A DNA stretch of 64,000 nt, taken from contig CM040090.1 of the NCBI GenBank assembly GCA_022496805.1, positions 8,054,001 through 8,118,000 on the forward strand, in the 5' to 3' direction. Source of the DNA: Pohlia nutans (taxonomy: Eukaryota > Streptophyta > Bryopsida > Bryales > Mniaceae). The translations under genes and the position numbers were made by a program. Positions within the stretch are counted from its first letter, which is position 1; every line of letters begins with the position of its first letter. A model generated the notes under the pieces. The model did not search any database. It saw only the letters and a list, made by a program, of their open reading frames with translations, and was not told where the DNA came from. Positions 9,190 through 45,640 of this stretch are shown in pieces.

Positions 9190-9219
9190 CACTACTAGGA
9201 AAACATACAAAATATGACT
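9190..9219 (+). repeat. Left terminal inverted repeat of the CACTA element
   Basis: Starts CACTACTAGGAAAACATACA and continues to TATGACT. It matches the inverse of 21818-21847 at 28 of 30 positions; the two differences are at positions 12 and 14. Confidence 0.95.
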
Positions 9220-9405
9220 GGGGTTTATGACTAAAAACGGGCATAAAGTGACCTGATGACTAATACCATTTTCAGTCAGCAATCTAGTCGTAGCGGACAA
9301 CGAAAATTACTAAAAATACTCTAGTCATATCTGCGGTCATACGTTCCCTGTGGCGCGTTCCCAAATTTTTTTTTGGGACCTCGATTATGGGCAGCCCGAC
9401 AAATA

Positions 9406-9932
9406 TGACTATGTTTAGTCATTTATGTGACTAGGAATAGTCAGAAACATCTGACTAGATTTAGTCATTGACGTCAATCTAATGACTAATATGCATAATT
9501 TTATGACGTCATTATATGACTATCATTGTGGTCCAAATTTGGTAGTGATGACTAGATTTAGTCATCATTTTGGTTTAAATATTCGTGAAGGCTCGTCAGT
9601 CATTCACATCCACTAGTAAGCATTCGAGATGTGATGACTATATCCAGTAGTCAGGGATGACTAAAATTAGTCATATGTTAAATCAAACGACTGGTTTCAA
9701 ACTAATTCTCCACGGTTTTCATTCATGGCAAATGACTAGTTCTAGTCATAAACTTAAAACATTCCACTACGGTTTCTGATCACTGGTAGTTATCGTTCCC
9801 AGATACCTTACTACAAAATCTGAGTAGCTGTAGTCAGAACTGTACATACTTTCAAACTTTTGCCCAAGGATATGACTGGAAAAAAGCTTTATTTGCGCAC
9901 AAAATTGTACAAAAATTGACTATGCATAGTCA
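9406..9932. promoter_or_regulatory. Left subterminal array of TGACTA-N4-TAGTCA palindromes
   Basis: Exact 16-bp palindromes start at 9406, 9428, 9452, 9549, 9658, 9733 and 9917, with many half-sites (TGACTA or TAGTCA) between. In maize En/Spm, TNPA binds short repeated sites in the subterminal regions. By position these are the likely binding sites of this element's own TNPA-like protein (inference). Confidence 0.85.
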
Positions 9933-10008
9933 TGACTTTCAAGAACGTGACTACACCTAATGACTACTTACAGTCATGAGATCCTGAAAAATTAAGGATA
10001 CTCCAAAA

Positions 10009-13000
10009 CTAAATATGCTTTAAGAATTGGCTGGGCCACAATATAAAGCTCTTTACTGCACGTCCCATTGTGCTGATGGGAGGGTCGTCCAAATTTACGC
10101 TCTTATAGATTTCGTATTTGTCGTTGTTGCTCTCCTGCACTTCCACGGAGACGCACCCTTCTTGAATTGTTTCCCTATGCAATGATGCCCCTTCCAAGTT
10201 CATCACCTTCCCAATACCAACTACTAGTTCTTCTTCCCCGACTGCAATACCCATGATTTGCACAACATCGAACATCTTGAATTCCGGAGGCGATGAGGCT
10301 TCCTCCTTTTCTCCACTTGTCTGCAATTCCACAAACACTAGTAAATAATGGAATGAATGAGGACTGCCACGACAACTAATCATGAACATTAAGGAAGAAC
10401 CGAGTGGGTTTAGGGTTCGGGTGCGCTTACCTTTGATGAGCTCTTGTCCTGATGAGCCCCCACTTTGTCTTCCTTGCTATCTTTTGCCACGACAGCCTGA
10501 TTGCTTGACTTCTTCTGTTTAGGAGCCTTTCCCCGTGCCTTCTTTTCTGTAGGAATGGAAGGCTCCTTCTCCACCGCTGGCTGCTCCCGCTCATCCCCGG
10601 ACCCCTTCTCTCTCATCTTGTAAACGCTGCCGGTACCCTTCTCTGTCCGGGGTAGCTTCTGCGATCCCCCGCTGTTTTTGAGCTTCTGCACCTCAGTAAC
10701 CCTCTTCCTCTTCTCAGCAGTTGGACGATGCTTCGGCAGCGATGGCAAGGCAGTGTCCGCCTCGACTTCCTTCCCTGTGCGTACTTCTACTATTTGCACA
10801 TCGTCTCTTCCTTCATGCTCCTATTTACCGCAGTATAACGTACCACAGTTAGACATGAAAACATATAGTTAATGGCTGCTCCTTACTACCACTAGTCAGC
10901 AATGTAGAGAGTGTGACTAAATTTAGTCATAAATTCTAATACAATGACTAGAACTAGTCATTTCACGGCGGGTACCTCGGTAATTCTCCTCTTCTCCTCA
11001 CTAGGCGCAGGGATCTCCAGCAGCGTCTGCAATGCAATCTCCTCTACCTCTTTGTCTCCTTTGCTGTCTGAGTCCAACTGCACGGTGTCTCTTCTTGCAG
11101 GCTTCTGTTCCAACACCCCAGCCCCGGTCATAACAACCACAGTGAGTCACAGCAACATTCACAGTGAACAGGGGACTTTCTGACTAATTCTAATCTAAAG
11201 TGTTAAGAACATGACCTTGTTTAGTCATACGTTTCTTAAGCATGGCTAACCTTTTTGGCGCTGATAACATCAGTACGAACCTCCTTCATTGTGATCCCCC
11301 CGCTGTCACCTCCGCATCCTTTCTCCACGTTCTCCGCTGAACTACTCGTAGCTCCGGCTCCTGGCTCTACAGTTGGAGGAGGTACGCTGCCTCCCTGCTC
11401 AATCTTCAAGGCAGCTAGAATCAGCTTCATATTCTCTTCTAACCCATCCATGCGTTTGTGTATGTCTCTATCCGACCCCATCTTTGACTGCCTGCTGGAC
11501 AGAGAGCCGCGATCATATCTGCTTCCTCCTTGCTCTACCAGATTTGCTGCAACCTCATCTGAAAGTTGTGCTGATGTGGAAGCCTTCTTCAACTGAGCCC
11601 GATTCCCTCGTAGCTTCTGTGCCTCCTTTATCTTTCTCTCTTCCGAGATCAACGTGGAGAGGTTCAGCCAATGGTCTTGACGAATGTGCTTAGGCTTGGG
11701 CTTATCGGCTACTAATGCCTTCTTCAGCTGATATCTCTTAGTCTTCAGCTGGTTCTTCAACAACGAGTGGAAGGCCTCCTCCGTGACTCGGCCAAGTCCC
11801 CCCTCATAATCAAAGGTGTTGTCGACCCGTTGCTTGATGGCGAGCAACATCGTCGTGCTATGATGGTTATAGTTATCAACGTTGAAGTCCACATCTTGGG
11901 AATGGCCTCGCAAGCATGACATCCAAAGCTGCCGGTTCTGACCGCAGGGGTTGCCCTTCATGTCAACCTCCACTACGTACCTCTTCTTGCCACGGTGCTC
12001 TCTTTCCGAAGCCCCCAACAACAGCTGCCGCTCTACTTGTCGTCTGCGACTACGTTGCTCTGAGTCCTCCGTTCGTCTGTCACCGCCATGTCCCTGGCTT
12101 TGTTGCGTAGTACCTCCACGCAATTGTCTTTCCGCAGGCTGTCCACCTTGAAGACGACGTTGTGCGACTAACATCTTCGCCTTCTTTAACTCCAATTTCT
12201 TGATTTCCAGTTCCAGGGACTTGGCTTCCAAATCGCCCTCGTCACTTTCTGAATCACTGTGGTGATCATCAATATTTGAAGATGGAATCGCCACATCGTC
12301 CATAAGCGGTTCATCTGCATAGAAATCGTGCTCCGCCGACTCGCCAGGCCATGATGCCTGCGACATCTTCACGACGGGTGCGCTTTTCGAGCCTGCCAAT
12401 TCTAGGGTCACACGCTTCGGCACCTTGAATGATTGATTCGTGGACGGAAAGGGACGCTTTCTTACTTCCCATTGTACTGGTTCCGATGTCTTCAACTTTT
12501 CCTGCTGACGTGAATATCGTGAAAATATCAACAAATAAAGATTTGGGTATTTCAGTGACTAATTGTAGTCATCGATGTGGAGAAGCTGACTAACTATAGT
12601 CATATAGTTCATAAGCATGACTAGCTATAGTCAGGTATTCCATAAGCATGACTAGCTATAGTCAGGTATTCCATAAGCATGACTAGCACTAGTCATTACG
12701 TGCTTGCATGACGTGAAGATCAAATACATTCAATGTTTAGAACCAAGCACTTGTAGTTTTCGGGCAAATACCTTGGCCTTTGGCTGCGGTGGCACTACAG
12801 CCTCCTCCTCCTCTGCAGACTCCTCCTGCTCTGACTGAGTGTCCTCGTCCTCTGTCTCCGTCTTCTCGTCGTCAAAAGAAGACTCTGAATCTGAGGCCTT
12901 CTTTTTGGATTTTGTGCTCGACCTTGTTGTCCGCTTACTGGGGCGTGGGTTGGACGGCTGGGTAGACAGTACGGCAAGCCGAATGGACCTTCGCGTACTT

Positions 13001-14126
13001 GGAACAGGCACCTCCCTGGATTCCTCAAACATGTCAGACATTAGGTTTGCCATGCGATTCAAGACACAACTCGTTATCTGTGGCATTCTACCGACTCCTT
13101 GGAATACCTCTTCCACACGATCGTCCGGTAAGTTTGCCACCAACGTCATTATTTTTTCTACAGAGGTAGTATGGGGATCACACATTGGCTTTCTATACAA
13201 AAAAATTTGGTGCTGGAGTAAGAGGTAGAGAAAGAAAAAGGGACATCAATAACGAGGCCCACGTACGAAGTAGAGCTGCGGCGGCTTTTCTTCTTTGCAG
13301 GCTGTGAGACCTTCTCTGGTGCCTGAGGAGACGTGGTGATCTGTCCAGCCGTCACCTCCGTGGCGATGCTGCTGATGCCCAAGGTGCGAAACACCTTGAG
13401 ATTACGCTCGATGTTCTTCTGTCTCTCAAGCTCGTACGGGGTTAGTTTGGCGGTGGCAGATAACTTTTTGGCTGCAATCCGCTTGCCATTCTTCTTCCCC
13501 CTTGCTTCAGAGTTGTCGTTGTCGGTGTCCCCGTCGCTGCCCTCTTCCTCGTCGCTCTCCTCCCTGTCGCTCTCCTCCTGGTCGCTCTCCTCCTCGTCGC
13601 TGTCCTCTTCCTCAGACTCAGCCTCCTCGTCGCTCTCCTCGCTGCCCTAGTCGTCGACCTCCCCGCTCTCCTGCTCCGACCCTAAACCCTTGCTCGCGAT
13701 CGCCGACGCAGTCGACTTCTTCCCCGACTTCTCCGACTTCGCCGACTTCTCCCCCACGATCGGCGACTTCGCCGACTTCTTCAACACGATCGCCGACTTC
13801 GCCGCCCGCGCAGCTCCGGTCGACGAACTCAATTGCTTCCCCGACTTTGCCGCCCTCGCAGGCGCAGTCGACGGAGTCGCCTTCCGCGTTGACTTCCTCT
13901 TCTCCGCGATCTCCGCAAACCCTAAACCGATTTTGCCGCTGCCGAACTCCAACTTCCTCGCCGCCGTATCGTACGCTTCGGAATCCTCGCTACCCCCGCT
14001 CTCTTGCTCCTCGTCAGACTCAGCCTCCTCCGACTCTTCCTCCAAACTCACTTCTTCTTCACTAGATTCTTCCTCCGTCGACGGCTCCTGCTGCTCAGAC
14101 ACTGTGGGCTTCCGAGATTTGGCCAT
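10009..14126 (-). pseudogene. TNPA/TNP1-like CACTA protein, six exons, one in-frame TAG
   Basis: Exons in coding order: 14126-13263, 13212-12772, 12504-11251, 11104-10976, 10820-10431, 10320-10009, with all introns phase 0 (about 1,129 codons). Start chosen at the ATG at 14126 (GCCATGG context, MAKSRKPTVS). Exon 1 encodes acidic Ser/Glu/Asp tracts, an Ala/Lys/Ser-rich stretch and the motif LTPYELERQKNIERNLKVF. Exon 3 holds a basic region (LLKNQLKTKRYQLKK, then DHWLNLSTLISEERKIKEA and NRAQLKKAS) that resembles the plant Ptta/En/Spm transposase domain (Transposase_24). Exon 6 resembles the TNP1 C-terminal domain (Transposase_23) and ends ILWPSQFL. A TAG at 13647-13649 interrupts exon 1; the frame continues open and still acidic on both sides, so the gene is broken there. 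The probable role is binding element ends during transposition. The exon 1 donor (GTGGGC) is weak. Confidence 0.85.
12556..12695. repeat. Five palindromes at 31-bp spacing in TNPA-like intron 2
   Basis: TGACTA-N4-TAGTCA starts at 12556, 12587, 12618, 12649 and 12680, exactly 31 bp apart. The later spacers are variants of GGTATTCCATAAGCA. The array fills much of the 267-bp intron. Confidence 0.92.
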
Positions 14127-14525
14127 GGCGACAGAGCCTCCAAGCGCGCCGACCAGGAGCAAGTGAAAATCTCGCAAGCGCCGCCATCTTTCTAACCACA
14201 GCAAGATTAGGGTAAGATCACCTGCAAATCTTACGCAATTATGATTGAAGAGATCTGCAGAGGGAGTGGGGAAGTGGAGTGAAAGTGAAAATCACAGGCA
14301 TTAGGGTTTCGGAATGAAGGGGTGGCGGCTGCGGGAGTTATAAGTTCGCGCCGACTCTGCCCTAAACCTTCGTAGGCTATTTATAGCGTTTAGGTCATCC
14401 ATAGATGACTAGGTGTAGTCAGCCTTTCTGCTTCGATGACTATTCGTAGTCAGATGTTCTGCATACATGACTAGATTGAACTGAAAGTTGTGTTTATTCT
14501 TTTTAGGTGGACCACGGAATTGCTA
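14127..14525. promoter_or_regulatory. Divergent promoter region of the CACTA genes
   Basis: About 400 bp separate the two divergent start codons, so both transcription units must start here. Two exact palindromes lie at 14406-14421 and 14437-14452, with a TATTTATAGC AT-rich box just before them (near 14378) and a CTTTTTAG tract just before the plus-strand start. The layout suggests that the TNPA-like protein could regulate both genes by binding the palindromes (inference). Confidence 0.6.
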
Positions 14526-15412
14526 ATGGATCCTACATCCCGAGAGGATCTTCTGCATTTGCAACTGTGGGAAATCGAAGAGAAAGAAGCAGACAGACAA
14601 GGTCTTAAAAGTTACCCTTGCCCATGTAAGAAATGCATGGGTGCAAAAATAGTATCAAGGACAACCATCCGCAAACATCTCCAGAAGCACAAGCGAGATC
14701 CTGAATTCAAGACATCCATCCTGGTATGTTATCCACCAGTTTAGTCTGATATCTTGGTTATTAAATATGTGGGTGCCAATGCGCTTGCCTTACTTTGTTG
14801 CGATGATACATGTAGGAAACACAGAGATATGTTGTTCTGGCCGCAGCAGCTGCTGCATTAAATTCAGTAATTTCAGCTCCTCTACCACTTCAAAGGAGCA
14901 CAGTGAGTAGTTTGTATCCCAACCATCAAGCATCTGTGGATACTGTTCAAACACATATCGATTATGGGCAGTGGCGCATAGGCACGATCCCGAAGCTCAA
15001 AATTTTCACATTTTGGGAAAGAAAGTGGGAGGTTAGGGTGTCAACACATCCGCACATGGGATGGGGCCTATATGCCATGGAAGCAGCCAAATCTGGTGAT
15101 GAGTTATTGCCATTTGTTGGGAAGAGATTCTCAAAGGCTGAGTTCCACCGTCATTGTGAGGCAGACAAGCGTTTTGTGAAGTATGCAATACGTGTGAAGA
15201 AAAATGTGTACCAAGATGGAGATGTGTTGAATGGAAATGTTGCAGGGTTTATTAACAGTTCCATTGGAAGAGAGCATATAGGGAATGCTATTTGGGAATA
15301 CGTGTCATTGCCTGCCCCATGGAACCCGAAAACTTGGGGGTATTTTATGACTGTAGCAACACGTGACATTGAAGTGGGAGAGGAACTTTTCACATATTAC
15401 CCTCTCAATTGA
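14526..15412 (+). CDS. Transposase-associated zinc finger fused to a SET domain (CACTA-encoded)
   Basis: Two exons, 14526-14723 and 14816-15412, joined in phase 0 (donor CTG|GTATGT, acceptor ATGTAG|GAA), give 264 residues ending in TGA. Residues about 30-60 hold YPCPCKKCMGAK, then RKHLQKHKRD, like the transposase-associated domain that starts ordinary tnp2 proteins. Residues about 125-262 form a SET domain: MGWGLYA (GxG motif), NGNVAGFINSS at the RFINHSC position, and DIEVGEELFTYY with the terminal tyrosine pair. His and Cys of NHSC are replaced and no pre-SET or post-SET cysteines are present, so it is a minimal or altered SET. The SET family methylates lysines, often on histones; activity here is unproven. 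The reading frame is undamaged, unlike its neighbours. No SET domain is usual in CACTA elements that I know of. Confidence 0.85.
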
Positions 15413-15779
15413 CAGGTCTCTTAGATTGCATCTAGGAAATGGGTAACAATACAAGAAACCGCTGTAATACTTTAGTGATTGATTGTCTGTCAAGGAAGAA
15501 CCACGACTAAATGTAGTCATTGTTTTTGTAGAGAGGACTAGCTGTAGTGACAACTTTTGCAGATATGACTAAACCTAGTCACTGTGCGTGCAGAGATGAC
15601 TACATCGTACTCACTATTTGTCTTGAGATGACTATTTGTAGTCATAGTTATCAGATACATGACTACTGTACATATGGATGAGCTACAATTATGAAAGTTT
15701 GTTTACATACTTGTAAGCTATGCAAGAAACGTGACATACTAACATATAATTGGGGGGGTTGTGAATATCATTTGTGTAG
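15413..15779 (+). other. Spacer/intron between SET exon and transposase core exon
   Basis: Holds exact palindromes at 15566-15581 and 15629-15644 plus near-matches at 15504 and 15533. A perfect TACTAAC branch-site-like motif lies at 15737-15743, 35 bp before the AG at 15778-15779. It is therefore an intron when the transposase mRNA is made. Confidence 0.65.
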
Positions 15780-18700
15780 TCTGGTTTTGTGTACGAAATT
15801 GAGCAAGATTGTCCAATCCTTCCTGAATCCAACGAAGCGCACGAGGAAAACCCGACAATGCGAACCGGATCAGAAGAATTTGATGTTGCCCGAATGATCA
15901 CAGACTGCCTTGGCAGATACGACAATGTCCCTCCCGCTACTGATGACGTCTCCGATGAGGATGAAGATGACATTGGTTTCAACGACGACGACTTCCATAA
16001 TGTAGGCCGTGCGAAATTCTTTGAAGAATCAAATATCCCACTCTACGAAGGTTGTCAGACAAAGCTTTTAGTTGCAGTGCTCCTCCTGTTCAATTGTTTC
16101 ACGGTATTTGGAGTCACAAACTCAGCCGCAGATGAAATCTTGAATGTGATCAACGAACTTCTTCCCGAGGGTAATAAACTCCCCAAATCTCACTCGGCTG
16201 GGAAGAAATTCCTACGCCACTTGGGGCTGAATTACAACTCAATCCACGCCTGCAGAAACGGGTGCTGTTTGTTTCGAGGAGAGTTAGCAGATGCATTGAC
16301 CTGCCCAAAATGTGGAGAGCTGCGATACACTTCGAACAGTAGTACAAGGGCAGTGAAGATACTAAGGCATTTTCCACTTATCCCCCGACTATTGCGAATG
16401 TATCGATGTACGAGGATTGCAGAGTTAAACAAGTGGCACACATCGAGAAAAGACATCAGCGGTAAAATGGAGAGTGTTCCAGACTCAAAAGCTTGGAAAC
16501 ACATCAATGAGCTCTATCCGGAATTTGCGTCTGAGGAGAGGAACATACGATTGGGGATGGCTCTGGACGGTGTGAACCCTTATTCAAACCAATCATTAAG
16601 CCACTCAACATGGCCAGTAATATTGTTGAACTACAACCTTCCTCCCTGGCTAATCACGAAATGTTTCTTTCTAATGTTGGTTCTCCTCATCCCAGGAAAA
16701 GAAAGCGTCACATCGGAAAATATAGATGTGTACTTGGCCCCACTTATTGAAGAGTTGCAGCAACTCTGGCACGGAGTCGATGCCGTTGATGTCTCCGATG
16801 ACAGTGAAAACCAAAATTTTGTACTCAAAGCAATATTGATGTGGTGCATCCACGATTATCCAGCGTATGGTCTTGTTTCTGGGCAAGTGACAAAGGGTTA
16901 TAGAGGATGTGTTGAATGTGGCCCTAATGTTACTACTCGTCGATCAGCCGCACTGGGTAAAAACGTATATTTGGGACATCGGAGATACCTACGAAGGAAT
17001 CACCCGTATCGACGACTCCGAAGAGCATTTGATGGCACGGAGGAAATTAGAGCACCTCCTTGCTCTCTAACTGGTCGAGATATCGTGCGGCATGCTAAAG
17101 CGAGGGAAAAATGGCTAGATACCTCTAATGAGAACAGACCAGGGGGGGAGAATGATTTAGTGCACCAAACTGGAGTGAAGAGGTTGTCAACCCTGTACAG
17201 TCTTTCGTATTGGCAGGTTAGTCTACCATTTCAACAGACCCCTTCTCACTCTTGTTTACCATGTTGTTGTATTGTGTGCCTACTGAGTAACATGTATGAT
17301 CAATAAGTTTGAGAATAAAGAGAATATGACTAGTTTTAGTCATGAAAACCGAATGTACGACTACATTTTGTATGCTGTAGTGAGCGCATTTATAAGTATG
17401 TTCTAACATGGGATGTGCACCACTGGCAGTGTCTCATGATCCGCCATGTGCTGGATCCAATGCATTGCGAAAAAAACCTGTGCGAAAACATCATGAAGAC
17501 AATATGGGGATTGAAAGATACTCTAAAAGTGCGACAAGACTTGGAAGAGGCGAACATACGTCCCGAACTCCACCCAAAACTTGTTGGAAATGATACCATC
17601 GCACTACCGGTTGCTCCTTATGTGCTGTCAAAGGTGGAGAAGGCAAAATTCATCAAAACCATCCGGAACCTAAAGACTCCCAGTAATTACGTGGGGCAGT
17701 TGTCCAAGAGGATAACCGTTGACGGAGACCTTCGTGGGCTTAAGTCACACGACTACCACATAATGATGCAGCAGATTCTTCCTTTATGTGTGCGAACACT
17801 TCTACCGAAGGATGTTCGGGCAACAATAATCCAGATTAGCAGAGTGTTCCAGCGTTTATGTGCGAAGTCTGTGGATCCATCAACAATGCAAGACTTGATG
17901 GAAGAAACAGCAGTAACTATGTGTATGATGGAGAAGGTATTCCCACCGTCATTTTTTGATGTCATGTCACATCTTCCGATCCACTTAGTGCAACAATTAG
18001 CCATTTGTGGTCCGGTCCACACACGCTGGATGTACCCAGTGGAACGGTATCTGAAAACGTTGAAGGGCTACGTACGACAACGAGCACAACCGGAAGGGTC
18101 GATGGCAAGAAGGTACATCATGGAGGAGGCGATTGGATTTTGCACTGAGTACATGCAAAATTGTACTATGACAGCACGCTGTGTTTGGGACGACAAAGAG
18201 GAGCCCAGTATGAATGACAAAGTGTTGCAAGGGAAGGGGAGACGACGCATGCATATTGTCGCCGGAACTGCAACAGTGGATTCATGAGTTCGTGATTAAC
18301 AACGCTGAAATCCTTCAAGATTACAGAGAGTAAGCTTTTTTGCAATATGATTTCCACATAGCTATATAAAATAACCAAAGCACTACGTCTGGTCATCATT
18401 TTAGATTAAAAGAGTAGCTATTAGCACGAGACAGAATGTTTAGTCAGAACAGTGGAAAAAATGACTAGGTGTAGTCACCATTCTGGAAGCACTTACTAAC
18501 TTCTGTGCACACGAGGTTGTCTTCTAAAAATTTAGGAACAATGACGGACTGGAGGTGATGTGTATATTGCAGGCGGTACGCGAGTGAAATGAGTCGACGA
18601 GAAGAGGCCAGAAAAGAATTCCGAAAACGAAGCAGGAGAAAACTTCCAGATTATCCCATGGATATACGACATGAATCCTTCAATACGTGGTTCAAAACTG

Positions 18701-19431
18701 CTGCATCTGAAGATGTTGCCATGGGCATTGATGTCTCTGGGGATATACTCGCACTGTTACTGCCTCCTAGACGAGAAGCGAAGGGATACAAGGCGATGTA
18801 TGCATACGGCAATCATATACGAGTACGCTCTGCAGAAGTAGATATGTTGACATGCGATAGTGGAGTAGCGGCTACGTTTCTGCAATCGTGTCGCGCTAGC
18901 TCTAGTGACAGGAACATGAGGACAGCAAATCTGGAGTATGTGGGGTGGGTGGACGAAATTATCAGCGTAGACTACGGCAAATTTGAAGTGGTGGTGTTGT
19001 ATTGCACATGGGCCCAAGCAAACAAGAGGGGAGCTCGCGCTACAATGAAATGTGACGAATATGGGTTCACGTTGTTCAGATTTGATCGATTGATTCCATA
19101 TTCAGCGGACTCCTTTGCATTCCCTCTTCACGTACAACAAGTTTTTTATGTAGACGACGAGGACAGCAGTGGATGGAAGATTGTGTTACGACGACAGCCG
19201 CGTGGCGCAAGAGTCGAGTCAAGTGATGGCGGAAGAGATGATTTGCAGAGTGTGCAGTTAGGTAGAGATGAGGAGCATGTAGGCCTACGGCTTGAATACA
19301 CTACCGTGGAAAGGGAACTAGACACTCCTGATTTGAGAAGCTGTAGGAGACTAACCACAGAAGATGTAAACCAAGTTTTGGCCGCTGCAGAGGAGGATCT
19401 AGAGGTGGGACATGATTTGCCATCACAGTAG
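15780..19431 (+). pseudogene. CACTA transposase tnp2/TNPD-like, with a 1-nt frameshift
   Basis: Core exons 15780-17216, 17385-18329 and 18573-19431. The first acceptor is phase 0 and would join the zinc-finger exon at 14723. Exon 1 matches Transposase_21: the CRNGCCLFRGE and CPKCGELRY cysteines, HFPLIPRLLRMYRC, LGMALDGVNPY, LPPWL and IDVYLAPLIEELQQLW. Exon 2 is the DUF4218 region (VLDPMHCEKNLCEN to GPVHTRWMYPVERYLKTLKGYVR). Exon 3 resembles DUF4216 (YGKFEVVVLYCTW to HVQQVFYVDDEDSSGWKIVL). A one-base excess in or near the GGGAAGGGG tract (about 18232-18242) shifts the frame. Past it, the next frame (SPELQQWIHEFVINN) leads correctly through the phase-2 intron into exon 3. With that base ignored, the protein including the zinc finger is about 1,145 residues. 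It would cut and join the element's ends. Confidence 0.9.
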
Positions 19432-19592
19432 GAAATGAGGCCAAATGCATGGCATAGCCCATTGTATTAGCAAACCAAGTACGAACCATAATATGTAGTA
19501 GTTGTGGTATCGGTAATCTTGATGACTATACATAGTCAGTGATTCTACATGCACGACTAATATGAGTCATTCGCTCGTGTTTACCGTCTACA

Positions 19593-20030
19593 GGGTTTTG
19601 GGGCCTTCAGGCTTTGATTCGATGGTAAATCAGATAATGCACCAACTAGCCTAGTACTTGTAAGCTGCTTCATTTGAAAAAAAAACATCAAAGATATGCT
19701 AGTAATTAAGAGGAAAATAAACCATAAAAAGATTCCTCGTGTAGAATCTGTAGCAAAACTATGAACAGAAGTTAGCAATCCAGAACGTACGAAAAAAGTT
19801 CCTAAAACACGACATAGAGAAGTGACCATATTAAGAAACAAAGTCCAATAATTGAATTTAGGTAAAATTACTGAATGAATACAAGCTGTAGCTAATAGCC
19901 AAGGCATAAAAGAAGCATTTTCTACAAGATCCCAAAACCACCAAACCCCCCACCCTAATTCATGATAAGCCCACCAACTTCCTAGCAAGATGCCTACAGT
20001 TAGAAAACATGCGTAAGAGTATTTTTTTAA
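19593..20030 (-). pseudogene. ccmF: Nuclear insertion of mitochondrial ccmF (cytochrome c maturation) fragment
   Basis: An open frame encodes about 145 residues of a multi-pass membrane protein with the CcmF tryptophan-rich motif ([16 protein letters not shown], then ENASFMPW). It continues [20 protein letters not shown] and ends at the NQSLKAPKP region of plant CcmFN. The family moves or attaches haem in mitochondrial cytochrome c maturation. No start, N-terminal part or targeting sequence is present, and the fragment lies in the 3' part of the transposon. The usual WWFWDPVEN is LVEN here, and one Gly of the motif is Val, which suggests decay after transfer or the state of the mitochondrial donor. 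It is not expected to be functional. Confidence 0.88.
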
Positions 20031-20254
20031 CTGTAGCAAATGGCCAATTCCACATTGCAAACTCTACATTGCCATGGTATACAAAGCGATCTGCCATGTA
20101 AATATCTTCAACTTCACTGATGGACGCTAGAACATGCATGCGCACTACCCTCGTGGGGTGCACTGTACTAAAAATGTACGAGTATACGTGAGTGCACAAA
20201 AGGGGTATTAATTTGAGTTACATTGCCGTATAACGTACACAAACAATAAACACA

Positions 20255-20817
20255 TTAACCCTTAAACGTACCAGTCCTTTCTGGAAAAGTCAAACTACAG
20301 AAATATATAGATTTAAGCCTTGAAGAATAATCAAAGTATATTTTATAATATTTTCATGCATGAAATTAAGTGTTTCCTAAAAGTCCTGAAATTTTCAGAT
20401 TTTTTTAATTTAACATGATTTTTTTACAAATTTTTAAGTGAAATGCTTCACAAATTCATTTTAATTACAAAAAGACTTCAAAAAATTGATTAATTTTTGG
20501 ATGAGATGCAAATCACAATGGAGAATCACATGATATCATTGATATGTTTTCCATTAAAAAAAAACTAGTTAAATTTTGAAATTCGAAAAGTAATCATCCC
20601 ATGTAGTGTATTCGGAGCTTGAATTACAAAGCTTGCAAAAGAGATAATTTACAGTATACATGAAATTTTTAAGATTTGAAAAGTGGAGTGCAAACTAGAC
20701 TTGATAAACTTCATTTTCTCTGTTGAGTGTAGTAGCAAAAGAAATCATCTTCGAGATCAAAATTGGGTTTGACCAACAAACATCCCATAACTGGATGCGT
20801 GGACGTTTAGGGGTTAA
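20255..20817. mobile_element. TTAACCC-type MITE inside the CACTA element
   Basis: Ends TTAACCCTTAAACGTACC and the inverse of TTAACCCCTAAACGTCC, with TTAA at both edges. Non-coding and AT-rich. It was inserted after the transposon had its present structure. Confidence 0.75.
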
Positions 20818-21595
20818 GAACTAAAAGTGTTCACGTATACTTACACTAAACATATATTTAGAACAAAATACATTTGTATATAAAGGTATTTAGACATAGA
20901 ACCTCTCATGTGCGATGGGGTTTTAGAAGGGGTCATGAAGGCATGTGATTCTCAAACATAATGTAGAGTGAACTTTCCAAGGCACTACCTCAAATTATAA
21001 TTCACGATGAATACCAAAGCAACACTAAACCGCTGATTGAGAAAAAAGTCAGCATGGACGTGAAACGGGCACAAATTGAAAGAGAAAGCTGATAAAAAAG
21101 AGGGAGAGGTAGAGTAAACAAAAGTGGAAAGAATACGTGAGGGGAAGAAGCGCTGTAGTCAAAATAAAACTATCCTAGTCAAAAAGAGAAAAACAATACA
21201 TCAATGCAAAATCGATAAATGACAAGAATTTGAACAAGGTGCAAAGAGAACTCATAAGAATATGGACAGTAAGAAGGGTATCTGGAATAAATATCCATGA
21301 TAGATGAATTGCAAAAGTGATATAAATATGTATGACTTCGAAAAAAAGTATGGAACGAAAAAATATGAAAAACAAAAGCAAATAATGCCAACTTGTTTTT
21401 GAATAAAAAGTTAAAAAATACAATGTATAAAATGTTAAAACCTCGAAGGAACAAAAGAAATTCAAAAGAAAACCCATAATCAAAAGGAAGGAAAGTGAAA
21501 TTGAAATAATATATAGATCATTAAACAAAGGATATAAATTTGAATTAAAACCATGAAGGCCACACTCAAAAACCCATTTACAAATGGCTGCCCGA
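20818..21595. other. AT-rich 3' non-coding part of the CACTA element
   Basis: No coding sequence recognised. The open frames on the minus strand at 21175-21528 are F/I/Y-rich and read like AT-rich noise. Confidence 0.5.
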
Positions 21596-21847
21596 AACTG
21601 TAGTCACATAACTACTAAATCTAGTCATATCGCTGCCCATGCAAAAAGTCATATGGCTGCCCACGGAAGAATACGTTCCCCAACTACGTTCCCATTGAGG
21701 TCCCATGTAAATATGACTAGAATCATAGTCATGTGATGACTATGGACTGTTCTAGTCACCAAAGTAGTTTATTTTGAGTCATATCCTCCCGATAGTCATA
21801 TCTAGTCATATGGCCGTAGTCATATTTTGTATGCTCTCCTAGTAGTG
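21596..21847 (-). promoter_or_regulatory. Right subterminal repeats and terminal inverted repeat
   Basis: Many TGACTA/TAGTCA half-sites, including TGACTAGAATCATAGTCA with a 6-bp spacer. These run into the right terminal repeat at 21818-21847, which ends CCTAGTAGTG. Confidence 0.85.
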
Positions 21848-24209: not shown

Positions 24210-25894
24210 AAAACCTTAGAACGTTGTTGGAATGAATGAATATAACTACATAGAAATGCAGAATTTGTGATGAACAAAATGAATCTTAAGATAATGGCTG
24301 AGTGGCAAAACATTCTGAGTAGTAATAACTTATCCTGAAAAGCTTCTTGGGATTTAGAATGGAACGTATAGGTATACGAAATGTTAATTGAACATAAAAA
24401 ACCATATGAACATGACTATCCGGAAATCAAATGTGAAAAACCCTTAAGAAATCACATGCACATGAATATGAAGAAGTAGAATGTGAACAAACCTTGAAAT
24501 TTATGGTTTGAATAACGTAAACCGTTCATCAAGTAAAAGTAAATCAAATAAACGTAGTACATGCTGTGAGTCTTTTCGAAAAATAAAACCCATTCTTAAC
24601 AGCTTTAAGAACCTGACGCACTGAACTAAAATTATAATGCTCATTGTTAACTTCTTATGCTCCACGACATCACAATCTGATAGAAATGGAAGTCATGATA
24701 GAAATGATAGAATAAAAGATGTTTTGTAATGAAATTCCTTTTTTCATACACGTACTCATTTAAGCATCGGAGTGTGGTTTGTTTGTGTGCAGGTCCATTG
24801 TCTATTACAAAATACTGCTAATAACATTCGTGAATTCTATGCATGCCAGTGAAGTGATGAAGTTACATTTTTCATACACGTACTCATTTAAGCATCGGAG
24901 TGTTGTTTGTTTGTGTGCAGGTCCATTGTCTATTACAAATGAATGCTAATAAAATTCGTAAATTCTATGCATGAATGTGAAGTGATGAAGTTACATTTTT
25001 CAGATACGTACTCATTTCAGCATCGGAGTGTGGTTTGTTTGTGTGCAGGTCTATTGTATATTTCAAAATAAAATGAATGTGGTAAGAATTCGAATCATGT
25101 ATGAGAAGGAACAGTGAAATAGACACGAACCATCTACATGTAGGGCAGTGGGCCTAATGGGTCTGGCGTATTGATCAACTTCTGGTCGGTTCTCCATTGC
25201 AATATCTCCTGAATTCTATACTTTAATAATCCACAATGTAGCATCAGAATGGATAGATCCAATCACACAAAAACAAAGGTGTTGTCTGCTGTGAAACACA
25301 TGGATGTCCTGAAAGCTCTATCACATGAACAAACAATGTATTGTTGAGCAATGCTGAGAAGGAGGGTAATGTCATTTTCCTGCATCATGCAGTGAATCAG
25401 TGGTTCCCCAGAAACCAGAACTCATACATTGGTCACTACCATGATCCAGGAAGTTCAGAGTCTGAGGTGACATTGGAGACATCTATTTTCACTATGATGA
25501 ATCCCTTGTCTGGGATTCATGACTTCTGTACTCTAAAAGATTACAAGGGATTCCAGAACCCTATCAAAAACAAACCCAAATTGGAATTGCCAAGTGTAAT
25601 CTACTGAACTGCAGGAACTGATTGAGACATGCAAAGATTAGAAGAAATTCAAGACAATGCAGGTCAATGCAAAAATTTACAATGCAAAGAACATGTCAGC
25701 AGAGCAACGTACCTGCGAGGAGCGTCGTACTCAAGAATTGAAGGTTCGTTTCCGTCCCCTCTCCGTTTTGTGTCGAGTCCCTGCTGTTGCAACGTCCTCA
25801 CCTTTCCGATTGTCATGGCTCGCTTTTCTAAAACCTCGGCCCAAAATCAGACGCTGCTATTCTTAACAACTAGTTAACGTGTACTTATCTTTTG
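24210..25894. other. Intergenic DNA with 128-bp tandem repeats
   Basis: No gene recognised. A short open frame at 25341-25607 has no family features that I know. Confidence 0.5.
24741..25075 (+). repeat. Three tandem copies of a 128-bp unit
   Basis: The unit CATACACGTACTCATTTAAG begins at 24745 and 24873, and at 25001 as CAGATACGTACTCATTTCAG, so the period is exactly 128. Each copy keeps GCATCGGAGTGT and TTTGTTTGTGTGCAGGTC; the third is incomplete. Confidence 0.9.
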
Positions 25895-26345: not shown

Positions 26346-26553
26346 CCGCATTAGGATTTAGGGTACCCCCCCCCATCCCCCTCATCACCACCCCATCATT
26401 TTCAGTACTGTACCTCACCTCAATCCGTCTCCATCAATCACTTTAGGGATGATTAGGACTCAGTAGGAGTACTATGAGGAGTATGCATTATGCGCTGTTT
26501 CGCAGGAACGAAATCAGTGTACGGACTACTCTTCTTTATGCATCAACATCACC

Positions 26554-29500
26554 ATGGGCTCTGAAATCCATGATTCTGATGTTATTTTTGATCCAATGTT
26601 GATTGAGGACGCTGTAGACTTGTCCAAAGACGATGGTGAGAACTGGAAGTACACGGAATCGACGTCTCTTGTAGCAGACGTAGATGCAGAAGCAGCGGTA
26701 CACCTTGTTCCATACGGTTTAGCTAAAACGTATACGCATACATCATGTCACGCTGTAGACGTCTTGTCAGGGTCTGTGGTACAACTGCAGAACGTAGGGG
26801 ACAGCGTTGTAGGCAGAGGTTTAGTGTCAAACGTTGTCTCAGAAGCGTTGGGTGATGTCGTCAAAAGTGACAATCCTCCCCCTACTGTACAGGTTGAACG
26901 CTTGATTGCCGAAACTGCCTGTGAGAAAGCGAAGCCCAAGCTCACTGTTTTGCAGCAAGTTCGCGCTAGAGTCCAATACCTAGACCCAGGACCGTTTGAT
27001 AGAACCGCTCTGAAGTGGGACGATCAGCGAAACAACGGTGGTAGTGGGAGGGTCCGGTATACCAAAACTGCCATTTTTCCCTGGGATAGGCTCCAAGACT
27101 TTGTGGAAGGGGAGTCTAATATGCGAGACTTCCCCTGTACCTTTACAGAAACAGTGCATCGGAAGGTGAAACCTGGAGCCATAGCCGTGGTAAAGAGGAG
27201 TACAGCTGAGCGCGTCATACGGTACGCCTGCGAGTTTGGTCCAGAGGACAACAGTGGACTCGTCAATCAGGAGATCGAATCGCTGTTTGCGAGGACCTTG
27301 GAAACTCGCAAGAGCCGCACGGCGAAGAAGTCCAAAACCGCCATTCCCGACATTGAAAGTGCCCCCAATGCGAAACAGGCGAGGAAACGCACCAGCCCAA
27401 AGACAGCCGTAGCCTCTGCATCTTCTCCAAAATAGCTGCAGCCAAAAAAGGGTGGGCGGAGGAAGACGGCCGGCGCCGCCGCTGCGACGGGCGCTCATAA
27501 GAAGGGGAGAGGCCGTTCCAAGAAGACAGCCTCCAGCGCAGTCGGGGAGCAGGGCGAAACCGCCGCCAATACGGCGTTCCTAGATCTAAACGTCGTACCC
27601 GATGTGAACAATGCTGAAGCTGTTCTGGAAGGGCGAGGAGTAGTTCCAGGTGTTGACGGGGCCCAGGACATCGCGGTTTTTGGTTCTGAGACTGCGTCTG
27701 AACGTCCACCTCTGCAGGAAAGCAGCGTCGCTGTTCCGCAACAGGGAATCGCTAAAGCCTCTGCAAAACCAGTCCAAACGCAGAGGGTGACGAAAAAACA
27801 TGCAGGAATGTCTCAGAAACGAGGGTGCCAGTGTAACTTTGTTGCGAAACAGGTATACGTTGATAACACGTTGTGTGAACTGCAGTATCACTGTTTTGAT
27901 CACGTCAACAGCGCTGGTGAAGTTTGTCACGGGAGTTCTTTCGGGGGATTCCGCCACGCCTTTGGTACTCGTCTGTCAACTACGACGAAACAGTGGATTG
28001 AAAGCTGTATCCGGGCCGGGCAGTCCGCAGCTCAGGTCATGGCTGAGCACAAATGGCATGTCTTGCAGATGTCTATGGCAGGACAAAAGCCTAATCGAGA
28101 CACATTCATCATGCCGTCCGACGTCCAAAATGTAGCCAAAAAACAAGCGCAAGAATTGTGGGAGAAGCATCGGCGCGATGCAATGAGCGTGAGCATGTGG
28201 ACGGAAGAAAATGCGGATTTTGTTTTTTACTACACATAGCATGAGAGCATTGATTTGAACGCCGCCCCCAAGGATGAGTGCACCTACACTCTTGGCATTC
28301 AAACACAATGGCAGCGTGAGGTCATGGCGCTCCATGGTCACAGGAGGGCGTTATCGATTGATGCAACCTTCGGAACAAATTAAATGATTCCCGGGTATGA
28401 ATATTCGTTGTTTCGACTTCACGCTGTTTCTATTTAAAATCTGCAGTGCTGTACTTGTGCAAGGGTCGTCATGTTTTGCTGCCAATGTGTGCAGTACCCA
28501 TTGTACACTGTCATGGTTTTTGATGAGTGGCAGAATGGCATTCCAATCGCGTTCGTCATTACTAACCGCTGCAAGGAGGAGGATTTGCTGCCCTGGATGA
28601 CAAAGCTGAGGGACAGCGTTGAAAAGCAATCTCCGGGATGGTGCCTGAACGCTGTTATCGTAGACTGCGCTCAAGCAGAGTTGAACGTCATAGGGTAAGC
28701 GTCGTTTAGTTCTACTTGCATTGTGTTATGCCATTCACATTTCAAGAAACTAGTTTCTTACAAACGGTCACTAAGTGGTATGGTTTGCAGGAAGGTGTGG
28801 CCTACTGCAACAATAATGCTATGTTTGTGGCACGTTCGTAAAGCATAGGCAGAGAATCTTGTCCAAAAGATAAATTCCCCAGAGCTTCGCTTGGAAATTC
28901 ACAAAGGGTTGGCCGACCTCATGTACAGTTCCGATCTCGTTTCCGGTGCGGAAGCCGTCGAGCATGCTGTTCGCAAATTTGAAGAACTGAAGCGAAAGCA
29001 TACTAGCGCTGCGGCGAAGGATTTTTTTGCATACTTCCAGAAACAGTGGATGGGGAAGGCTGAGATGTGGGTGACAGGGTTCCGCAACCTCCCCCACGCA
29101 GGACAGGACACAAATGATGCCATTGAGTCTTACCACGGGAATATGAAATCGATTCTCTTTACGTCGAGACAGCAAGTTTTTGTCGACGGATGGATTGGCT
29201 GATATATCAACTCTTAGGTGATATACTCACCAACTACTCGTACGCTGTCCAATGCAAATTGTATGGGTTTGTTATGAACAATGCTGCAGAGAGAGTTGTG
29301 GCAAGTGCTGTTCTTCGTGCACGTTCAATCTCGGATAACTTTATGAAGCTGTATCCGGAGGGGTACGATTTAGCTTTTGGGACGTCTGTGAATCATTTCC
29401 CGAAGGTTTGGACCGTTCTAGGGCCCAACAAAGACTACGCTCAGTGCGATTGCCCCGTTTCGCAAAGGGGCAACATATGTAAACATACGGTGAAGTGTTT

Positions 29501-29921
29501 CAAGATGCTGCACCCGGAGATAGAAGACAGCCTCATCATACGCGTCAGAGGGACAACAAGGGGTATGTTGGAATCTGGTGAGACACGATCACCGTTGGAT
29601 GCGTTCGGGGCGGGGCGGCTTGTCACCACAGCTAAAGATTTCGACGATAAAGAGAATGCCCCAGGGAACGGCCTGTCTACGGCGGATAAAATGCTGAAGC
29701 TGGCGACGCTATTTGATGACATACTGAAGATGGTGGAGAACGACGAGCTCCTGCAATCCCAAGCTATATCGCAAGCGAAGTCCGCCAAAGGGAAATTGCT
29801 GGATATGAAGGCGAGGAGGGCTGCATGGATTATTCACCCTGCTTCACAATCTGTTTTCAAGCCTAATGAAGGGGACAACAGTCTAAAGCGCCGTAGAAGT
29901 ATGTTGGAGTTGAGTCGTTAG
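26554..29921 (+). pseudogene. MURA-type transposase of the MULE, multiple in-frame stops
   Basis: Start at the ATG at 26554. The N-terminal part is unrecognised. Then come a cysteine/histidine stretch (GCQCNFVAKQ to YHCFDHVN) and the DDE core: RRALSIDATFGTN (first Asp), CLNAVIVDCAQAE (second Asp), TNDAIESYHGNMK (Glu). A SWIM zinc finger follows (QCDCPVSQRGNICKHTVKCF, C-x-C-x8-C-x-H) and the frame ends at TAG 29919-29921. Introns are likely near 28400-28487 and 28695-28790. Damage: TAG at 27433 and 28237, TAA at 28381, TAG at 28846, and a frameshift near 29185. Each stop lies in a frame that stays open and family-like on both sides. The family cuts and pastes Mutator elements, creating 9-bp duplications as seen here. 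Confidence 0.9.
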
Positions 29922-41811: not shown

Positions 41812-43870
41812 CTAAGGACTTGGGAAGACTGGGAATTTGAGCAGTAAAAGAAAAAGCAATCTGGATATTATGTTGACTTCCTTTTGTGCAATTGGATTTG
41901 CTTTTTTACCAACACATGCAATGTTCTTCGCTGATTCTGGTGATATAAATCAGGGTCCTATTTGAATTACAATTTTCATAATATTATTGATTGAATGTCA
42001 TTTTAAAATTGTGAGCCCTCTGTCCTTGAGGGGTCAAATTGCAAACGAGTAACTTATCGCAATGTGAATATCGTCAGCACCCTCGGGTTTCAAAAACCAT
42101 TGTAGGTCTATAGCAAATGTCTCGGAACATAAAAATAGCCAGGCATGCAGGTTGCGCATATTGAGCTTACATGCAATCCCAGGCACCAGCTCGCATATCA
42201 TGAGACCGGGGTTCGATTCGTCCATGACAACATATGTGCACCTACAATCTTCACTATCTGACAAAACTTACTTCAATTGAGGCTTTTTGGTAAGTGAAAC
42301 AGGATTTCAACGCAATCCATGTGTTATTTAGGAACGGTATGAATAAATCATGAATTTTTAAAGCTTATAGATGCACCCAAAATCGACCCTACGCTCTCAT
42401 AGGCTGATCATGTAACTAATAATTATGTTGTTTTGGATTCAAATGTAGAGGGTAAGTTCCTCTTGGATCATGTTCTGATTATGGGAGCACACAGCTTAAA
42501 ATCATTTAATATTGATTGAATGGGTATGACAGAGAGGTATTCCAAGACAGTCATCAAAATTGTGACATAATTCAAGGTTAGTGCACAAAGCTCTAGAAAG
42601 TACTAAACCTGGTATACATCCAATTTTTATTTTATTTTATCGTCTGGACGACACAGTCACTTATTATGTAGTATTACATCGTTTTATCTTTGATTATCGA
42701 TCTTGTAATTTATTTCAAAAATTGTGATTGACTGGTTCCTCCTGTGAGTCCCATCCATTCAAGTCGATTTCTCACATCGCTCGTTGGTCCTCGGTGACGA
42801 ACTTGGTGACGGCCTTGGTGCCCTCGTACACCGCATGCTTGGCGAGCTCCCCGGGCAAGATGAGGCGCACCGCCGTCTGGATCTCGCGAGACGTGATGGT
42901 GGCCTTCTTGTTGGCCTTCGCCAACTGCGCCGCCTCCTGCGCCAGCTTGTCGAAGATGTCGTTCAGGAACGAGTTCATGACCACCATCGCCTTCGATGAG
43001 ATTCCAGTCCCCTCTGCCGTGACCTGCATATATAGTTACGCATGCATTTTTCAATCCATTCAACCGAGTGACCCACTGACAGGAAAATCCAACCGACGTT
43101 TCTCATCGCTAGCAGTATTCAATTCAAGGGTTTAATTAATTTCTCCAAGTACGTACGTACTCTGCATGCATTGATTCAATTCCACATGAATGCAGCAAAT
43201 AAGTGGCTGAGAATGCCATAGATACCTGCTTCAACACCTTGAAGATGTAAATGTTGAAGCTCTCAACGCTCTTCTTTGGCTTCTTCTTCGTCACTTGGGC
43301 ATTGATTCTGGTGTGCGCTGGCTTCTTCTGGGCCCTGGACATGAAGGACTTCTGCTCCTCTGCCATTAGAACGAAAAAACAGCGAAGGATCAAGTACTTA
43401 GGATGCTTGATCACGTACAGGAGGCTCAGGGAATGAGTAGCTAGGATATCCTGAGACTAATGACAAGAGAGTACAATTGAGGGAGCTGGAGCGAATTGGT
43501 CGGCTTAAATACCCGATACCGATCTGTGGTCCAACTACCGAGATATCGATCGAATTCGTGCTTGCCAAGGCCACGCTCTTTCAAAACCAACTAAATAATT
43601 ACTGTCGAGGCCAGATCATCGCTACCGAGGCTCCGTCCCGGAGATCTTGACGAGGTTGTACACGATGGGAAACCTCAGGGACCTTCAATTGTGACTTCGA
43701 CTTATTGTGAATTTCGTGAATTTTGTGAATTTTTGTGACTACGAATAATTTCTGCACCGATTACGTAGTTTAATACTCTACGGTGGGATAATGCACACTA
43801 AATACTAGGGGGTACTAAGAGGACCCATACTAATTTATCGATTTTTCACACTATATAAATATTTACCCAA
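41812..43870. repeat. Left arm of a 2-kb inverted duplication (H2B region)
   Basis: Resembles the reverse complement of about 57665-59870 across the H2B gene and both flanks. Examples are the box near 43790 (GGGTACTAAGAGGACCCATA) and the one near 42200 (ATATCATGAGACCGGGGTTC). It is diverged by substitutions and indels. Exact edges are approximate. Confidence 0.8.
42772..43366 (-). CDS. Histone H2B, intron-containing variant
   Basis: Two exons, 43366-43226 and 43023-42772, joined in phase 0, give 130 residues ([20 protein letters not shown] start). H2B packs DNA in the nucleosome with H2A. The plant fold is clear: [54 protein letters not shown] and [17 protein letters not shown]. The tail is short for plant H2B, and the usual VHPD before TGISSKAM is VTAEG, exactly at the exon junction. 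Canonical replication-dependent H2B genes usually lack introns, so this looks like a replication-independent or tissue-specific variant (inference). The reading frame is intact. A TTTAA-type box lies about 140 bp upstream. Confidence 0.95.
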
Positions 43871-45640
43871 GTTGTTGCACAAAAAACATAATAACTTTTT
43901 AAAATTTTATTTTTGTTCTACACACATAACATCATTACATTCTATAACAATAGGGTTCATCCCCCATTGTTTGATTTGATTAATTTTTTACTAAGAGAGT
44001 AACTTTCCTTGAAACTAGGGTGTAAAGATGGCACTTGTCATTCTATAAGGGAATTTAGTAGGAGTCAAGCAAATAAGACAAACTTAAGATGTAGTAACAA
44101 AAAGAATCAGAGAACATCAAAAAAAATCTTGGAAACTTTGTAAGGGTATTGTACAAGGTATTGTAAAGTCTAGAGCTTAACAATGTTATGAACTTTAGAA
44201 CTAAGAATTTGATTTAAAAAATTCAATGATTTAGTACTCTGAACTATAAACTTTACGTTACGTTCTTTGGAAGTGCAGTGTTGTACTTTCGAATCTCAAG
44301 CATTTGTGAGGCGATCAGAGGAATCATAGAGAATTTTCTTTAGCTTCAGGTAGTTCAAGTAATGAGCATAGGAGAATTGGACTATTTTATTCGTAGTAGC
44401 ACTGTACAAAAGTGGTGTGGTCAAGCAAGGGCTGAAGAATGTTATGTACAAGGTAAGTTAAGTCCCTCTTTTTTCTAAGTTTCTCAGTCCGTTCAATACC
44501 CTCAATTTAGTGTAGTTACTCTTGTATACGTCATATGTCAAAAAGATCTTGTTCTCACTGAAATATATGCCCGGGATGCACTCTACATTATATTTGAGAA
44601 TCACGTGCATTCATGACGCCTTCTAGAAACCTTCTTGTATACAAGAGGTTATATGTCTAAATATCTTTGAATACAAATATATTCCGCTTTAAATATCTGT
44701 TTAATGTAAGTATACATGAATATTTTTAGTTCTAAATGTGTTTATTGTATGTATATGTAATACGGCAGTGTTCAAATTAATACCCTTCTGTGCAGTCACA
44801 TATACTTGTATATATTTAGTACAATGCAGCCTCCGGTAATATATAGATTAACCTAAACTCCATAATTATAGAGGGAATAAGTTGATTGTGATGCAAATCC
44901 ATGGATTAAGTGAGTACAGAGGAAATATTTCGATTGCCAGAAAGAGTATACACAACCAATATCCACAATAATATTTCATGGTCACTATGATCAAAATGAT
45001 TAACACAATTAACATTGGAAAAATCCATGGATTAACGTGCCAGATTGTTTGCAATGTCCAAAAGTAGTTGTCAAATGTGTACGAATCTTAATTGCTGGTA
45101 GTAAATGAGTATAGTTGGAAATCTTGGTTCTATTTTAGACAAAATATAACCCCTAAACGTCCAACCATCCAGAAAGTGAACAATGTACAAAATCAAACGC
45201 AGTTTTTCATCCGTCATTAATTTTCTGCAGTGCGGGTGTTTTACTATATATTTTTATGGGAAGCTAGTTTCATATATGTATGATCTGATTAGAAAGGGGA
45301 CAATTTCAACCAATCACAACAAATTTCATGTTCAAATTGTCAATATCTTATTTGTTATCAAATTACAAAAGAATTTGAAATTTTATGTTTTAAATTTTAT
45401 ACAAAAATATTGGTGACAACAATCATAAATCTAATTGTATGGATAAAATCAAAAATTCACAATGTACAACTTTTATTCATATATCAAATTCAAACTATTC
45501 CTCTTAGTTACATTTTATAAGACATCTTTGAAATTCTCCAAATTTGGAGAGGGGCGAGGACGTCTCTTTTTGAGGGACCCAGATGATTCCATGTTCTCAA
45601 TCCGGATATTATCCCGGATATGGGGTTCCGGGTATAAGCG
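43871..45640. other. AT-rich intergenic DNA
   Basis: No gene recognised. A TAACCCCTAAACGTCC end of the common MITE type lies near 45147, but I did not find its partner. Confidence 0.5.

Follow-up and report, generated by a model that had tools for sequence, protein, structure and literature searches.

A CACTA transposon family of the moss Pohlia nutans with a SET-domain exon kept by selection: a jumping gene that may mark chromatin to its own advantage

Introduction

Can a transposon carry its own enzyme for writing chromatin marks? In plants, DNA and histone methylation keep transposons silent, and few transposon-encoded proteins are known to counteract this. The question is raised by a locus of the Antarctic moss Pohlia nutans, where a CACTA element holds an exon for a SET domain, the domain of lysine methyltransferases, between the zinc finger and the Transposase_21 part of its transposase gene. 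We analysed this element in a stretch of 64,000 nucleotides (C6:8054001-8118000, contig CM040090.1), which we call the window and in whose coordinates features are given below, and in the whole assembly of 697,796,988 bases and 332 contigs (698.20 Mb and 313 or 362 scaffolds in the accessible part of the genome paper, PMC9247546). Our analysis shows a family with a SET exon that selection has preserved in many copies, and suggests that the jumping gene may write chromatin marks for its own benefit. Anatomy and selection, taken together, we regard as almost certain; the function that we propose is a far more tentative matter.

Results

The element occupies 9190..21847 on the forward strand (12,658 bp) and is bounded by terminal inverted repeats of 30 nt that are 93% complementary, CACTACTAGG... 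on the left (9190..9219) and ...CCTAGTAGTG on the right (21818..21847). An exon at 14526..14723, which starts with ATG, encodes a zinc finger resembling the transposase-associated type (CxCx2C ... H), and a phase-0 intron (14724..14815) separates it from the SET exon (14816..15412), which has 198 codons and ends with its own stop codon. The SET exon matches PF00856 with E=6.8e-9 and 36.5 bits (cut-off 22.4). Downstream on the same strand, and each above its curated cut-off, follow the tnp2 exon (Transposase_21, PF02992, E=1.6e-74; 15780..17218, the 3' donor at 17218 being our own reading), a frame with a DUF4218 exon within it (PF13960, E=7.5e-40; 17346..18287) and a frame with DUF4216 (PF13952, E=6.1e-8; 18559..19431); the DUF4218 frame stops at 18287, ahead of the start of the next. 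The transposase of this SET-bearing element is thus a Transposase_21, and not one of the Harbinger or MuDR superfamilies. A divergent frame of 440 amino acids on the reverse strand (11236..12558), which an earlier sequence-only reading had called TNPA, matched no Pfam family.

Is this arrangement peculiar to one copy? A genome search with the SET exon as query, in which the best 150 of 356 candidates were scored and inverted duplicates were counted twice, returned at least 150 matches, every scored candidate matching. They form two clades, A with at least 98 matches at 68% identity or more and B with at least 52 matches at 45-54%. We fetched 40 of the 98 copies in clade A and 12 of the 52 in clade B; the first twenty of clade A were taken by rank and the others with a preference for stop-free frames, so that intact copies are over-represented. 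The zinc-finger exon lies upstream of SET in 51 of the 52 fetched copies (it was not found in L060). The SET frame is free of stops in 32 of 40 clade-A and in all 12 clade-B copies, and a stop falls within tnp2 exon 2 in 7 of 18 copies examined. Given these stops in tnp2 and in the remaining 8 of 40 clade-A SET frames, the contrast between an intact SET exon and damaged neighbours, to which the sequence-only reading had drawn attention, is weak evidence.

The junction between zinc finger and SET is kept more strictly than the intron that it encloses. In the window the donor follows 14723 (ATCCTG/gtatgt, the slash marking the exon boundary) and the acceptor precedes 14816 (atgtag/GAAACA), both in phase 0. 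In 49 of 51 copies the donor GT begins precisely where the exon stops (in L016 and L031 it is one base off), and the acceptor AG stands exactly before SET in 50 of 52, L039 and L042 being the exceptions. Between the clades, two comparisons of the body of intron 1 gave a likeness of 0.54 and 0.51, against 0.51 and 0.49 for shuffled sequence, and the coding exons on either side are 0.53-0.59 alike. An intron body that is unlike between clades, with its position and phase kept, is the pattern of a used splice junction, and splice-site conservation in two such diverged clades strongly supports the zinc-finger-SET fusion as a gene model. Both the complete SET frame within CACTA termini and the predicted phase-0 splice joining it to the zinc finger, as first read from the window, are upheld.

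A shortened sub-lineage (L028, L031, L032, L034-L037 and L039-L044) has CTT or TTT in place of the zinc-finger ATG and keeps SET; tnp2 is absent or cut within the stretch fetched, and L035-L037 have a common stop at codon 113. Among the matches listed, 24 of the 98 in clade A lie on C23 (16.7 Mb, 2.4% of the genome), where 2.3 would be expected. As the accessible part of the genome paper counts 22 chromosomes (PMC9247546), C23 may be a scaffold of an extra or sex chromosome or one of unplaced sequence.

Does selection hold the SET exon? We estimated omega by pairwise codon maximum likelihood between groups of our own making, defined by identity and indels rather than by a tree, with 2dlnL as the test against omega=1; values between clades A and B were saturated and are not used. 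Within clade B, omega was 0.186 for B1-B2 (2dlnL 59.3), 0.182 for B1-B3 (67.2) and 0.285 for B2-B3 (18.3). Between young and old copies of clade A it was 0.332 (2dlnL 6.3), or 0.310 (8.1) with slightly different members. The SET exon is under purifying selection between groups (omega 0.18-0.33), and since tnp2 exon 2 has an omega of 0.252 across the clade-A split (2dlnL 19.0), SET is held about as firmly as the transposase. For the zinc-finger exon omega was 0.21-0.22 within B and 0.478 within A, the latter not significant (2dlnL 0.9). The mean dN/dS inside clade A by counting was 0.44, as expected for young copies. That other copies would have the SET exon at the same place, and that it would evolve non-neutrally, had been anticipated from the window copy; both hold true in this genome, the former in two clades and the latter between groups.

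The predicted structure of the SET exon found only SET proteins in its top 50 rows, by Foldseek and VIA alike, and the exon is accordingly predicted to encode a SET fold. In the structure alignment, which excludes row L058, the active-site residues G82-W-G84, N147, N157 and Y195 are invariant or kept in at least 90% of 43 rows; in a profile search the Asn aligns with that of Set1 and the catalytic Tyr aligns in a weak piece. Set1/MLL, ASH1L, SETD2, EZH2 and EHMT2 all score in that search, the best matches being H3K4-type enzymes at a weak E=1e-7, and rows within 1 of each other in structural Z score, which we treat as tied, include SET8, Set1, ASH1L and EZH2. With all of these enzymes scoring, structure and sequence choose no substrate. 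A distant match in NCBIfam to a Legionella effector SET (19.2 bits, under a cut-off of 550) we take as the shared SET core.

The sequence-only reading had assigned the zinc finger to the transposase-associated family PF13963; the similarity stands at E=2e-5, but the score of 25.1 bits falls under the curated cut-off of 27.7. Two clade-B copies gave 21.9 and 21.3 bits for PF13963 and 18.5 and 21.1 for U-box, whose cut-off is 21.4. In 12 chosen rows from both clades the residues C32, C34, C37 and H51 are invariant. A scan of the genome for the PF13963 family gave no matches, but the controls were silent too, so that nothing follows from it.

How could one gene serve both SET and the transposase? 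The SET stop codon is followed by 367 bases (15413..15779, forward strand) before the tnp2 frame, an interval that would be intronic if SET were skipped. Just ahead of the tnp2 frame, the TAG of the tnp2 acceptor (gtgtag/TCT at 15780) closes that frame, and this acceptor and the donor at 14723 are both in phase 0. Of 40 clade-A copies, 31 have this TAG immediately ahead of the first tnp2 residue; in L043 it stands before the place of that residue, L023 is rearranged, and in 7 of the 40 no tnp2 match was found in the fetched stretch. All six clade-B copies examined have an in-frame CAG/GA(C/T)GAGTAC at the matching place, which we picked among several AGs. One donor with two phase-0 acceptors could give either a zinc-finger-SET or a zinc-finger-tnp2 product, two candidate splice forms of one gene. 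Translation from an internal ATG at tnp2 codon 27 would be an alternative to splicing from the zinc-finger exon.

What in the element might such a protein recognise? The palindrome TGACT-N6-AGTCA occurs 23 times in the window, against 0.13 expected, with 22 occurrences in the element and one in the neighbouring copy. The spacer is fixed: within the element there are no pairs at 0-5 or 7 bases and 1, 1 and 2 at 8, 9 and 12. Half-sites number 68 in about 4.9 kb of non-coding and 3 in about 7.7 kb of coding sequence of the element, the coding part having been marked by us from frames, and 25 in the 51 kb outside. Many copies are spaced at 31-bp steps. Eight form a subterminal group (9406..9976), two lie 31 bp apart at 10914..10960, five follow each other in 31-bp steps at 12556..12695, two stand upstream of the zinc-finger ATG (14406..14452) and two in the interval between SET and tnp2 (15566..15644); single palindromes follow tnp2 (17327..17342), separate the DUF4218 and DUF4216 frames (18462..18477) and follow the DUF4216 frame (19523..19538). 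In clade B the six-base spacer is kept (5 palindromes in three representative copies, 0-1 at each other spacing) and the inner bases have changed. Such fixed arrays in the non-coding parts are compatible with targeting of the element's own DNA.

For signs of transposition we looked at both predicted ends of three further copies. Two of them have terminal repeats on either side and are flanked by perfect 3-bp target duplications, one copy being 12,672 bp long (TTG/TTG) and the other 12,420 bp (AGC/AGC); in the third (L066, L067) the 501 bases retrieved from either end contained no terminal repeat. The 3-bp flanks of the window copy are unlike, CTT and GAC. It has an inverted neighbour identical around SET in 5894 of 5894 bases (C6:8046575-8052468 and 8068116-8074009), with the same right flank, and inside the window this duplicate appears as 1197 bases at 99.9% (1-1197 and 11387-12583). 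The window copy therefore belongs to an inverted segmental duplication or an assembly fold-back. Two more inverted pairs among the matches listed, on C10 near 19.97 Mb and C23 near 8.02 Mb, are likewise segmental events or assembly fold-backs.

Relatives of the SET exon also exist outside this assembly. A search of public proteins with the spliced product gave 13 matches in 303 candidates, and one with the SET profile gave 92 in 5686, none with a useful name. In one of them, P0091, a SET piece that agrees with the window at 30 of 50 residues is fused to a stretch that agrees with the window's DUF4216 frame at 62 of 87; P0091 had no match to Pfam at E 0.1, and its halves were placed by direct comparison. 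From this sequence P0091 appears to be an independent CACTA context for SET. In a tree of 35 rows, with the distant clade P0089, P0094, P0095 and P0098-P0100 lying outside, clades A and B fall into separate groups, each with environmental sequences (support 99/99 for A with P0002 and P0004, 93/99 for the B group). Some near-identical environmental rows may come from P. nutans or a sister moss. P0089, which is 29% identical to the window SET, and P0094-P0102 are environmental SET sequences of a distant family; those of its rows that were read show a similar GxV-GNV(A/S)G-INS signature.

Two readings of the origin of the exon were rejected. A viral or prokaryotic source was tried by pattern scans, which gave no relative in viral_contigs or in 84,980 prokaryote species, and a chance open frame is ruled out by 198 codons and the SET match in many copies.

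Discussion

We propose that in a long-lived CACTA lineage the transposase gene acquired an alternative last exon, one that encodes a SET domain. Both products would come from a single promoter and a shared zinc-finger exon: splicing to 14816 would give a zinc-finger-SET protein of 264 residues, and skipping to 15780 the usual zinc-finger-tnp2 transposase. The zinc-finger-SET protein would most likely bind the element's own DNA at the TGACT-N6-AGTCA palindromes and there methylate a lysine, by preference on a histone, opposing host silencing in the way that VANC clears VANDAL elements. Deposition of a histone mark at the element's own DNA is our inference. An alternative last exon with a self-targeted anti-silencing role is the best overall explanation that we can offer, and we hold it tentatively, at somewhat less than an even chance. 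The full form of the proposal, in which alternative last exons give transposase and chromatin writer one DNA-reading zinc finger in common and histone methylation at the palindrome arrays keeps the element unsilenced, is doubtful as it stands. If this two-protein reading were true, element and writer would have co-evolved for long, as both clades have environmental relatives.

A number of observations weigh against this proposal. Both splice forms are predictions from genomic sequence. In each of the three copies scanned the zinc finger scores too low for the PF13963 cut-off, U-box doing about as well in one of them, and the zinc-finger model (mean pLDDT 76) had no PDB match with E < 0.001, so that the fold lends no support to DNA binding. 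In ordinary En/Spm it is TNPA that binds subterminal motifs, and the palindromes may thus belong to another protein. In the SET domain, at least 90% of 43 rows have Ser where His usually follows the Asn of the NHS motif, most rows have Thr or Ala opposite the first Tyr of the Set1 YDY, and the protein ends directly past the SET core, with no post-SET cysteines. That His is common but not universal among SET enzymes, so the Ser lowers only the claim of ordinary activity; given all three features, methyltransferase activity could be altered or lost. Finally, between the shortened copies, which have lost the ATG and most of tnp2, and the rest, SET omega was 0.42 and 0.50 (2dlnL 2.3 each), not distinguishable from 1.

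The same departures from an ordinary active site would suit a catalytically dead SET domain that an accessory zinc-finger protein keeps for binding or dimerisation, but GWG, Asn147, Asn157 and Tyr195 would then have little reason to be as nearly invariant as they are, and we consider this unlikely. Equally improbable in our judgement is methylation of a non-histone protein, such as the transposase or the divergent TNPA-like protein, as a means of regulating transposition; against it we count the structural tie that includes SET8, Set1, ASH1L and EZH2. Could the mark instead be a repressive one, damping the element's own or competing copies or silencing host defence genes, as vSET, a minimal SET protein of a chlorella virus, reportedly does with H3K27? 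Here the breadth of the profile search, in which EZH2 and EHMT2 score along with the others, is favourable, as is the minimal SET domain without post-SET. Selection on the element, however, would less readily maintain a self-damping factor, and the best sequence matches, weak as they are, are H3K4-type enzymes, which leaves a repressive mark quite improbable. The SET exon as a neutral passenger, a fragment of a host gene, is hardly credible. CACTA elements often carry gene fragments, according to the part of the review available (PMC8978399), and a ccmF-like fragment (PF01578) in this very element indicates that capture happens; but exon, phase and place are common to two clades at 45-54% identity, and this conservation together with the omegas contradicts a passenger, unless the omegas are artefacts of our grouping.

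How does the proposed writer compare with known systems? In SETMAR/Metnase of primates SET is likewise joined to transposase sequence, but there a host SET gene gained a transposase, whereas in the moss a transposon gained a SET exon and stays multicopy. ORF1 of seed-plant CACTA elements has the transposase-associated domain, Transposase_21, DUF4218 and DUF4216; the moss element has the last three and a zinc finger resembling the first. The accessible text of the review gives ORF1 four basic domains and names as gains Peptidase_C48, Transposase_24, SANT and a few others, SET not being among those named there (PMC8978399). That transposons can carry SET is already known: Kojima and Jurka 2014 (Repbase Reports), as cited in the available part of PMC12730594, described Harbinger (HarbingerS) and MuDR transposons of Phytophthora that, like the moss CACTA, are DNA transposons encoding a SET-domain lysine methyltransferase, although they belong to other superfamilies and an oomycete host. 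The same portion of that source describes fungal DNA transposons with TET/JBP, including EnSpm, which combine a CACTA-type element with a chromatin-modifying enzyme as in the moss, but act on DNA 5-methylcytosine, with no SET and no plant among them (PMC12730594). For VANDAL elements of Arabidopsis, the accessible sections report that VANC target regions lie in non-coding parts and consist of short motifs repeated in tandem, which vary from family to family (PMC10398659, PMC5735166). There, as we propose for the moss, an element-encoded protein acts on its own copies through motifs repeated in their non-coding parts; anti-silencing is demonstrated for VANC and proposed from sequence for the moss, and those sections do not present VANC as a SET protein (PMC10398659, PMC5735166). 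No SET-bearing CACTA element was found in titles and abstract openings among the matches listed in the open-licence PMC literature, Repbase Reports and most subscription journals lying outside that scope.

With a CACTA family that has a SET exon, one can test directly if a transposon is itself a writer of marks and does more than erase or recruit them. A zinc-finger-SET protein would moreover offer a natural, compact, targeted methyltransferase fusion. In the moss itself, a SET enzyme might help to explain why DNA transposons make up 23.68% of the assembly, as the accessible part of the genome paper states (PMC9247546).

Other features of the window

Inside the element, near its right end, a fragment of a ccmF-like cytochrome c assembly gene lies on the reverse strand (19581-20063, PF01578, E=7.6e-19) and is probably mitochondrial DNA taken in. 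Outside the element, a frame at 29127-29921 has a weak SWIM zinc finger (E=0.0056, under the cut-off) and lies close to two long frames without families (26467-28239), which together with it are perhaps a Mutator-like element. A 128-bp tandem repeat of about 2.7-3 copies occupies 24726-25109, and a 2.2-kb inverted pair with 83% identity lies at 41835-43915 and 57653-59819.
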